A stretch of DNA of 49,320 nt, taken from NCBI GenBank assembly GCA_009693865.1, contig SHWL01000014.1, positions 1 to 49,320 on the forward strand, read 5' to 3'. Both the position numbers and the translations under genes were made by a program. Below are positions 27,211-30,932 of this stretch, one piece after another. This DNA comes from Acetobacteraceae bacterium. GTDB taxonomy: Bacteria; Pseudomonadota; Alphaproteobacteria; Acetobacterales; Acetobacteraceae. The notes beneath the pieces are model-generated. The model searched no databases. It was not told the origin of the DNA and saw only the letters and a program-made list of their open reading frames with translations. Numbering within the stretch: position 1 is the stretch's first letter; every line of letters begins with the position of its first letter.

Positions 27211-27418
27211 TTAGACCCCGGCGGCGGGGTTCACAAGGGGGCGGCCCGGTTGGCCTCGGGAGTGGCGGCTTCGTCTGGCCAGTATGACGGCCACCGAATT
27301 CTCCTGGAACACCCTGAGCGGATCGTCTGGCCCGAACAACGCCCCCTGGGCAAGGCCGCGTTTGCGCCGCGAGACCGCGGGCGGTGGATGGTGGGAAACC
27401 CTCTGGACGGCGCGAGAA

Positions 27419-30400
27419 ATGACGATAGATGTCGCGAATTGGCTGCAACAACTCGGCCTTGAGCAATACGGGGCGGCGTTCCGCGACAACGATGTCGACG
27501 CGGACGTTCTACCAGACCTGACGGCCGAGGATCTGATCGGTATGGGCGTGACCTCGATCGGCCATCGCCGCAAGCTCCTGTCCGCCATCGCCTCGCTTGG
27601 CGCCGAAGCGCCGGCCGCGTTACCTCCGGCTGTCGTGGCACCCGCATCGGCGTCCGCTCCGGCACTGGCGCCCGTGCCGCCTCCCGCGCCAGCCGAAGCC
27701 GAACGGCGTCAGTTGACGGTGATGTTTTGCGACCTCGTGGGATCGACCGCGCTCTCTACCGCGATGGACCCCGAAGATTTGCGCGACGTCATCACCTCGT
27801 TCCAGACGCGGTGCGCCGAGGCCGTCCGCCGCTATGACGGCTTCGTCGCGAAGTACATGGGCGACGGCATACTGGTCTATTTCGGTTACCCGCGTGCGCA
27901 TGAAGATGAGCCCGAGCGCGCGGCACGGGCCGGCCTCGACATCGTCGCCGCCATGGCGGACCTGAACGCCGCCGTGCCTCGCCCGCCTGGCGTCGAGCTG
28001 ACGGTTCGGATTGGCATCGCCACCGGCCCCGTCATCGTGGGCGATCAGATCGGCGAGGGCACCGCCTCGGAAACCGCCGTCATCGGCGAAACCCCGAATC
28101 TCGCGGCCCGCCTGCAGGCGTTGGCCGAGCCGAACCAGATCGTCGTCGGCGCCTCCACCCGCGCCCTTCTGGGCGATCATGTCGAATTCCAGGACATGGG
28201 TCCGCACGCGCTGAAAGGTTTCTCCGACCCCGTCCTGGCCTGGCGGGTGCTGTCCGTGCGCGACACCGACAGCCGGTTCGAATCGCGGCAGACCGGCAAA
28301 TCCATCCCCCTCGTCGGGCGGCAGGCCGAAATGGAACTTCTGCTTCGCGCCTGGGACGGCAGCAGTCAGGGCCGCGGCCAGGTCGTGCTGATCCAGGGCG
28401 AGGCCGGCATCGGAAAATCCCGCCTTCTGGAAGCGCTCCGCGACGCCACCGGCAAAGACCGCATGTGGATCTCCATGCGCAGTTCCCAGTTCCATTCCGC
28501 CAGCGCGTTTTATCCCATCATCGAACATTTGAAACGCGTCATGGACTGGCAGCCGGAGGACTCCGCCGCCGGCCGCTTCGCCAAACTGGAAAAAACCCTC
28601 AGCGGCTTCAAAGCCGTGCCGCTGGCCGAAAGCGTGCCCCTGATCGCCAACCTGATGTCCGTGCCCTGGTCCGAGGATCGTTACCCCGCCGCCCAGGTCT
28701 CGGCGCAGCAACGGCGCGAGGCGACGATGGATGTGCTGGCCGCCTGGATGCTGGAAGTCGCCGAGCACGGTCCCGTCCTGATGGTCTGGGAGGACCTTCA
28801 CTGGGCCGATCCCACCACGCTCGAAGCCCTGGGCAACGTCATCGAGCAGGCCCCGACGGTCCCCATGCTGGTGATCGCCACCTACCGCCCGGAACTGTCG
28901 CCGCCCTGGCCCAATCGTTCCTACATGACACCGATCACGCTGAACCGGCTGGAACGCCCGGAGGTGGAGGCGATCGTCGGCCACGCGGTGGACCGCAAGG
29001 CGCTGCCTCGGGAGGTACTCGATCATATCGTCGCCAAATCGGACGGCGTGCCGCTTTATGTCGAGGAACTGACGAAAACCATCATCGGCTCCGGCGTTCT
29101 GGAAGATCGCGGCGATGCCTATGTGCTGAACGGCGCACTGTCGCGGCTGAACATTCCGGAGACGTTGCAGGACTCGTTGATGGCACGGCTGGATCGCGTG
29201 CCGCGACTGCGGGAGGTCGCGCAACTGGGGTCGGTGCTGGGGCGTGAGTTCGCGTACGACATGATCAGCGCGCTGATGGGGATCGAGGAACCGCAGTTGC
29301 AAAGCGGTCTCGGGCAGTTGGTGGTGGATGAGTTGCTGTATCAGCGGGGGCGTCCGCCGCGGTCGAGATATTTGTTCAAGCACGCGTTGATTCAGGACGC
29401 GGCGTATCAGTCGTTGTTGAAGCGGACGCGTCAGCAATATCACCAGCAGGTGGCGAAGCTGTTGGAGGAACGGTTTCCGGATGTGGTGAGTTCTCAGCCG
29501 GAACTGCTGGCGCATCATTACGCGGAGGCGAATTGTCCGGCGGAGGCGATTGGGTATTGGCTCAGGGCGGGCGAAGCCAGTGCGAAGCAGTCCGCGAATG
29601 TCGAGGCGATCGATCAGTTTCGCAAAGGGTTGGAACTGGTCGCGGCGCTGTCCGATCCACGTGAACGAGACCGGCAGGAGCTGGATCTTCTGATGGGCCT
29701 CGGCCCCGCGTTGGCCGCGGCCAAGCGCAATAGCCATCCTGAGTTTGGCCAGGCCTGTACGCGGGCCTGGGAAATCTGCGAACAACTCGGCGATGATATC
29801 AAGGGATTCGCGGCGCTCCGTGGCTTGATGCTCTACCACCTCGCGACAGAGGAATTGGTAAAATCTCAGTTTTTCGCCGAGCAGGCGCTTCGCGCCGCCG
29901 AACGGCTCGAAGATGCGTCCCGTCTGGTCGGAGGGCACATGGCGCTGGGCTCGGTGCTCTACTCCCAAGGGAAACTCGAGCAGGCACCTCTTCATTTCCA
30001 GCTTGCCCTGGAGAAATTCGATCCGCGTGAGTTTAATCTTCCTGATTGGTCCGGCAGCCACCCCGCGATCCAGTGTCAATCATACCTGGCAACCATATCC
30101 TGGATGCTTGGCTACCCGGGTCGATCGCTTGAGGAAGCAGCCGCCGCTGTGAAAAGCGCCGACGCGCTCGGCCATCCGTTACTCACCAGTCGGTATCTTA
30201 AGCTATAAACCATCCTAAACATATAGATATTAACGGGGCATATCCATGGCCGGTGTAGCCTAAAATACCGACTAGTGAGTAAGCCTCGGTCAAACGCTGT
30301 GTTATGCCGCGCTCATCGCCATCCTCCGTAACGAACTGCCCGCGAGCAGGGACTATGCGGCACGGGTCACGCGTGTTCGCGAGGAGCACAGCATCAGTCA

Positions 30401-30932
30401 ATGGGACATGATCGCCGCGTGCATGCACGGCTGGACACTCAGCGTGTCGGGCGAAACGGAAAAAGGACTGGCCCAGATCGCGGGAGTCCTGGAACGTTAT
30501 GGCGCTGGGTCGGTCGCGCATGTGTTGTTCACGCTGCAATCCGATGCGCATTTGAGGGTTGGTAAACCCGAAGCGTCCCTTGTGTCTGCCACAAGCGGGT
30601 TGAAATCAGTGAAAGAGATGGGAGGCGCGCCGTTTGAGGCCGAACTCCACCGCCTCAAGGGCGAGGCCCTACTCGCCGGTGCCGGAACCGCGAGCGAAGC
30701 CGAGGCTTCCATCCAGCAAGGCCTCGCCGTCGCCCGCCGTCAGAACGCGAAATCCTGGGAACTGCGCTGCGCGACGAGTCTGGCCCGCCTGTGGCGGCAA
30801 CGGGGACGGCACGAAGACGCGCTCGCGATGCTGAGCCCGGTCTACAACTGGTTCACCGAGGGCTTCGACACCCACGATCTGCGAACAGCCCGCGCGCTGC
30901 TCGATGAATTCGCCGGAACGACCGGCACGTGA
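27419..30932 (+). pseudogene. SAM-domain class III cyclase / STAND ATPase / TPR protein, split by a MITE
   Basis: One gene interrupted at 30180. Without the 100 inserted bases the frame is continuous, 1,137 residues. N-terminus: SAM-domain helix set WLQQLGLEQYGAAF, LPDLTAEDLIGMGV (about 5-60). Next a class III nucleotide cyclase domain (about 95-270): MFCDLVGSTALS with metal Asp, KYMGDGILVYFGYP with second metal Asp, and GETPNLAARLQA with transition-state Asn and Arg. Then an ATPase with Walker A GEAGIGKSRLLEALR and Walker B VLMVWEDLHWADPTT, followed by TPR-like helices. The split leaves a 929-residue frame ending at TAA 30208, with cyclase and ATPase domains intact, and a tail frame (ATG 30408 to TGA 30932) that carries the last TPR helices. 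The 5' product could still be expressed. Start ATG 27419 is chosen by domain extent. Confidence 0.85.
30180..30281. mobile_element. 98-bp MITE with TA target-site duplication (Tc1/mariner/IS630 type)
   Basis: Terminal inverted repeats: left end 30182 onward and right end 30279 backward share CTCACYAGTCGGTATYTTA (two differences over 19 bases), with similarity continuing to about base 24. The element spans 30182-30279 (98 bp). It is flanked by TA at 30180-30181 and TA at 30280-30281, the target duplication typical of IS630/Tc1-mariner elements. It is AT-richer than the host gene and has no transposase. Removing 98 bp plus one TA (100 bp) rejoins CATCCGTTA to AGCCTCGGT and restores the cyclase frame as GHPLSLGQTLCYAAL. 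This arithmetic fit identifies both ends to the base. Confidence 0.92.

Follow-up and report, generated by a model that had tools for sequence, protein, structure and literature searches.

The window analysed here, a stretch of 49,320 nucleotides on contig SHWL01000014.1 of an Acetobacteraceae genome, contains a gene for a multidomain nucleotide cyclase that is broken into two frames by a short sequence with inverted ends. The locus raises the question of what this sequence is, whether its arrival divided a gene that had been intact, and which transposase could have carried it there. We consider it very probable that the sequence is an IS630-cognate MITE that entered a TTAA target at its TA, within a then intact gene encoding SAM, cyclase and AAA domains with a TPR-like C-terminal region, and that it duplicated the TA and truncated the protein.

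The element and the gene it interrupts

Direct reading of positions 30180-30281 gives TA, 98 bp beginning CTCACCAGTCGGTATCTTA and ending TAAAATACCGACTAGTGAG, and TA again, in agreement with the coordinates and sequences of the sequence-only reading. The MITE (30182-30279) and the left and right copies of the duplicated TA (30180-30181 and 30280-30281) are features without strand, as is the ancestral TTAA target, whose outer T lies at 30179 and outer A at 30282. The left terminal inverted repeat is CTCACCAGTCGGTATCTTAAGCTATA (30182-30207, plus strand), and the right is CTCACTAGTCGGTATTTTAGGCTACA, read inward on the minus strand (30254-30279). Inverted arms of 27 nt each (30179-30205 and 30256-30282) are 89% complementary with 50 nt between them. 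The element strand has a folding energy of -36.4 kcal/mol, compared with -19.0 (sd 3.0) for shuffled sequences (z = -5.8; 0 of 200 shuffles equal). When searched by tblastn with four transposases of the matching IS630 group, described below, the 98 bp gave matches of 4 to 9 residues only (E of 2.2 or more).

The 5′ part of the interrupted gene (27419-30208, plus strand) encodes SAM, class III nucleotide cyclase and AAA_16 domains, all of whose matches lie upstream of the insertion. The NCBIfam model TIGR03903 (TOMM system kinase/cyclase fusion protein) scored below its cut-off for this part (500.4 vs 705.75), and the name is not used here. As found, the frame halts after eight element-coded codons and a stop, yielding 929 aa from the ATG at 27419 or 974 aa from the ATG at 27284, from which it is also open. 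The 3′ part (30282-30932, plus strand) lies out of frame with the 5′ part, and within it a 174-aa ORF (30408-30932) has weak TPR matches under the Pfam cut-offs. Deleting 30182-30281 in a script produces a single frame that runs from ATG 27419 to 30932, 1138 codons with the stop counted, and has the junction peptide GHPLSLGQTLCYAAL. This repair takes the 98 bp and 2 bp more, which, together with the flanking TA, fixes the limits of the element to the base.

Homologues of the cyclase gene were used to examine the junction, with a test set of 34 loci (36 minus the duplicates L166 and L170). The 300 residues around the junction are matched by 23 of the 34, and 22 of these alignments span it, L017 being the one that does not. 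No gap falls within five residues of the junction in 20 of the 22 spanning alignments, while L024 and L027 have one. Queried alone, the 216 residues after the junction still find counterparts in 22 of the 34 loci, and the 3′ part is therefore the true C-terminus of the cyclase gene. The claim that the element arrived after the gene was intact is thus borne out, both by the single frame obtained on removing 98 bp and one TA and by the mostly gapless alignments. A comparison with an empty site in related strains had been proposed. No close orthologue of the gene was found in 59 genomes or in 385 (limit 1e-190), both sets including this genome, and the best homologue is 52% identical, but alignments of the distant homologues mostly cross the junction ungapped. 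Since these homologues are distant, their alignments are good evidence for the frame rather than a same-site empty allele, and the empty state of the gene is a reconstruction from the frame and the distant alignments together.

Of the 1137 residues of the protein, the insertion leaves the first 921. Cyclase function has probably been lost as a result, and the insertion may be recent. For the host gene, the consequence is that a nucleotide cyclase lacks its C-terminal region in one genome, and nothing wider. The sequence-only reading had also stated that excision restores the frame exactly. This holds for removal in silico, which gives the 1138 codons; real excision, judged from the known cleavage chemistry of ISY100, would normally leave a scar. 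Because joining after excision would leave such extra bases, the statement is best taken to describe the ancestral sequence and not a predicted reversion.

Matching IS630 transposons and their target

Transposases with a DDE_3 domain were found in 84 genomes, the host's among them, out of 145. The ends of 30 DDE_3 loci, one per genome, and of one locus of this genome were compared with those of the MITE; the end-finding rule returned a pair for all 31, many of them plainly by chance. One locus stands apart, L041 of G026, a genome of the same genus, which has the TA-flanked ends CTCACCAGTCGGTAATATAG and CTCACCAGTCGTTAATTAAG with a 17/19 match, against at most 14/19 in the remaining loci. The G026 element measures 1056 bp with unread bases, and the automatic end-pair search gave no pair for it at L070. 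A partial left IS630 end (L041 1174-1290, 93 bp identical) precedes the full element by 198 bp and points the same way; unread bases lie between the two.

The readable part of the G026 transposase matched plasmid elements of Methylocystis, Acidiphilium, Lichenicola and Methylocapsa at 69-83% identity and of Polaromonas at 68%. Six plasmid loci from these genera (two from Lichenicola) have matching ends and lengths of 1101-1103 bp, the Methylocapsa element being without TA on its right side. The loci L072 and L073, and two Cupriavidus loci at 64-67% identity, showed no convincing TA-flanked end pair, and elements at 41-44% identity (IS885, ISAzo32, and those of Azotobacter and Rhodococcus) have other ends. 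NCBIfam identifies the Acidiphilium protein, which has 344 aa and a DDE_3 domain, as an IS630 transposase; used as a query against 397 family genomes, this protein found a match at 1e-40 in 27. In that search, genome G336 has a transposase at C3:100707-101738, with coordinates and strand identical to those in the Lichenicola cladoniae plasmid NZ_CP053710.1, in keeping with a probable Acetobacteraceae placement of the host, with which G336 shares a family. Among 28 Acetobacteraceae loci examined, six have CTCA-type ends at 19-22/26, and the other 22 reach at most 14/26. The loci L115 and L116, with transposases 81% identical, showed no matching ends, and by length both loci stop within about 10 bases of the match. 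In genome G330, nine ends of the group (L148, L154, L157 and L159-L164) each have only a few dozen inner bases before the locus edge, which suggests assembly breaks at a repeated IS.

Across 13 elements of this IS630 group, the right end of the MITE shares 18-22 of 26 bases and the left end 15-20 of 26. The two ways of assigning MITE ends to IS ends score an exact tie, 509 vs 509. The class proposed from the sequence, a non-autonomous IS630/Tc1/mariner-type element, is accordingly upheld by ends that match IS630 elements and by the lack of transposase coding. The prediction of an IS630-type transposase with matching ends holds for the sister species G026 and for other proteobacteria; in the assembled host genome, about 81% complete, no transposase with matching ends was found. 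An autonomous partner in the same genome is usual for MITEs, but it is not required. The host's own IS630 on contig C172 was considered as partner and set aside, since its ends, TACATCTTGCCGGAAGT and TACACCTCGCCGGAAGTT, differ. Judged by eye, that element (L008 1-1388) may have its transposase divided between two frames close to a T/A run at about 590.

The target of the group can be read directly on a plasmid pair, where Acidiphilium cryptum pACRY02 retains the empty site GACTCTTAACACGC and A. multivorum holds the filled one, GACTCTTA followed by 1103 bp and TAACACGC. The lengths agree (3717 - 2612 = 1105 = 1103 + 2). The empty site has a single TA, within TTAA, so duplication in this IS group is confined to TA. 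The TA duplication claimed for the MITE is supported by the TA on both sides of both of its copies in this genome, by the 98 + 2 bp that must be removed to repair the frame, and by this empty site, where the duplication is seen directly, though for an IS of the group only. At both MITE copies a T precedes the left TA and an A follows the right one, so that each has TTA on the left and TAA on the right; the complete TTAA on both sides that a piggyBac-type element would show was not found at either.

Preference for TTAA was assessed over 20 insertions with both ends read, namely 17 IS, the two MITE copies and one short element of genome G028. In kind, the 17 IS are not all independent: probably a single species supplied six of them, A. 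multivorum two and M. rosea two, at different sites. TTAA is present at 15 of the 20, the others being TTAG twice, TTAT, TTAC and one without a right-end TA. Of six further elements, five lie in TTAA and one in TTAG. For calibration, TTAA is the target of 3 of 12 IS630 elements that have other ends and were picked from the family loci for clear end pairs (at least 20/26), and 23 of the 765 TA dinucleotides in the window (3%) fall within TTAA. For comparison, ISY100 is described in PMC6400869 as favouring A/T-rich sequence around TA only slightly. ISHsp2 of Halomonas shares the TTAA target, but according to PMC3606827 it duplicates all four bases, whereas only TA is duplicated here.

Copies in the genome and competing explanations

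The host assembly comprises 4.48 Mb in 209 contigs and is 81% complete. A second copy of the MITE lies at C160:32154-32255, 96% identical and with unrelated flanks; the two differ at 4 of 98 positions (29, 36, 42 and 50), all internal. With up to three mismatches the terminal repeat occurs at four places in the genome, all of them ends of these two copies (reversed control, 0), so the suggestion that the element is repeated is confirmed at two copies. It was also suggested that the element may still be mobile, a possibility for which the assembled genome offers no matching transposase. The 102 bp were absent from 144 relatives, none of which carries the same 98 bp in a conserved longer protein, and from the plasmid and phage collections searched. 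The exact 19-base end had no match in viral_contigs and one in genome_contigs, in Parapedobacter luteus, where the 8-kb locus holds no second AGTCGGTAT and the match was taken as chance.

The strong fold, the short length and the presence of two copies would also suit a hairpin or palindromic repeat of the REP or terminator kind, selected for regulation and resembling a transposon only in appearance. However, any element with long inverted ends folds in this way, and this one sits in a coding frame and breaks it, is flanked by TA, and has ends that match IS630 ends over about 26 nt. Over 30000-30500 Rfam returned no family at its gathering score; the sole listed match, to a microRNA family, scored 21.7 bits (E 0.05) where the gathering score is 100. 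No copy occurs in the 144 relatives, and a regulatory origin is very unlikely. The fragmented state of the assembly could prompt the suspicion that the insert arose during assembly or binning. This explanation is scarcely credible, because the two copies have different flanks and four internal differences, each has TA on both sides, and at one of them removal repairs the frame exactly.

A different alternative accepts the MITE and asks whether it is tolerated in a working split gene, with the 5′ part acting as a functional truncated cyclase and the 3′ part perhaps starting at ATG 30408. The position of all the domain matches upstream of the insertion fits such an arrangement, as does the 3′ frame, which is still open and has a third-position GC of 0.73, near the upstream value of 0.77 (0.67 and 0.52 in the other two frames). 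An open tail of 216 codons is equally expected after a recent insertion, and we regard a working split gene as unlikely. The preferred explanation is that an IS630-cognate MITE truncated an intact gene.

Several other features of the genome were recorded alongside the two copies. About 400 bp from the second copy, at C160:32649-32753 (L003 5650-5754), lies a different hairpin element of about 105 bp with TA at both ends and the arms TACTAATCTCCCAATACTATACCCGACA and TGTCGGGTATAATCTTGGGAGATTAGTA; it has a single full copy in this genome and none in 58 other genomes searched. The minus strand of L003 5247-5543 holds a 98-aa ORF, hydrophobic by eye and without a Pfam match, whose stop codon comes from the end of the second MITE copy. 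Elsewhere in the window, positions 1783-1865 form an inverted repeat of two 41-nt arms, 88% complementary and 1 nt apart.

A proposed mechanism and short elements with shared ends

IS630-cognate MITEs are a well-known kind of element, for which RUP of Streptococcus pneumoniae is the model case. As described in PMC2229807, RUP is 107 bp long with no coding capacity, has inverted ends like those of IS630 and a TA target, and is proposed to be the cognate of IS630-Spn1, a pneumococcal IS; its 108 copies are intergenic. Likened by description, the window MITE agrees with RUP in its length of about 100 bp, its lack of genes, its IS630-like inverted ends and its TA target. Unlike RUP, it has two known copies, one of them in a gene, and a partner was found only outside this genome. 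On the same source and again by description, Correia/NEMIS and ERIC are likewise bacterial MITEs with TA at their ends, found in other hosts. The closest likeness is to the IS630 subgroup of Methylocystis, Acidiphilium, Lichenicola and G026, with its CTCAC(C/A/T)AGTCGGTAATWTAGGCGACA-like ends, with which the MITE shares ends, TTAA target and TA duplication. The subgroup differs in its length of 1101-1103 bp (1056 bp with unread bases in G026) and in carrying a transposase, which the MITE does not. Among the open PubMed Central matches listed, no title or abstract opening names the element. The window MITE and the set that shares its ends across the genus form a modest addition to the known kind.

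The partner of the 98-bp MITE would be an IS630 of about 1.1 kb with CTCACYAGTCGGTAT ends. A transposase of this subgroup, the obvious candidate for the mover, would have acted in trans from an element that the strain has since lost or never had, or that the assembly lacks. Going by the family, it would bind the ends of roughly 26 bp, cut the MITE from its donor site and join it to a TA. The case is one of a gene disrupted by a bacterial MITE whose limits are exact to the base and whose transposase family is identified.

Short elements with the same ends occur elsewhere in the genus and family. Allowing two mismatches, the end was found in six of 299 family genomes besides the host, at 16 places in total (reversed control, 0). 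Within the genus, 6 of 33 genomes, host included, match a slightly looser end pattern, and 27 of 33 have no match at up to two mismatches (reversed control, 0 of 33). The other complete short elements are one of 106 bp in G016, one of 99 bp in G032 and at least five of 227-309 bp in G028 (L185, L191, L196, L205 and L207), all too small for a transposase gene. One G028 copy was checked and showed no real transposase similarity. The four longer G028 elements are 81-91% identical pairwise and have a further inverted repeat in their interior that is missing from the 227-bp copy.

The interior of the MITE had no match beyond chance-sized words in nine IS elements and only a weak likeness to the 99-bp element of G032, which 172 of 5000 shuffles equalled for one copy and 378 for the other. 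These comparisons therefore give no support to an origin by internal deletion of an IS. We tentatively suggest, as somewhat less than an even prospect, that one IS630 subgroup with a strong preference for TTAA, of which only TA is duplicated, serves independent MITE families across the genus (98, 99, 106 and 227-309 bp) that share little but their ends, and that it moves them between species without the autonomous element. With sister species carrying short elements on the same ends, the genus could serve to study how gene-less elements spread where a transposase is resident and where it is not. The 99-bp element of G032 lies within a perfect palindrome, GCGACTTA and TAAGTCGC (L188 356-470).
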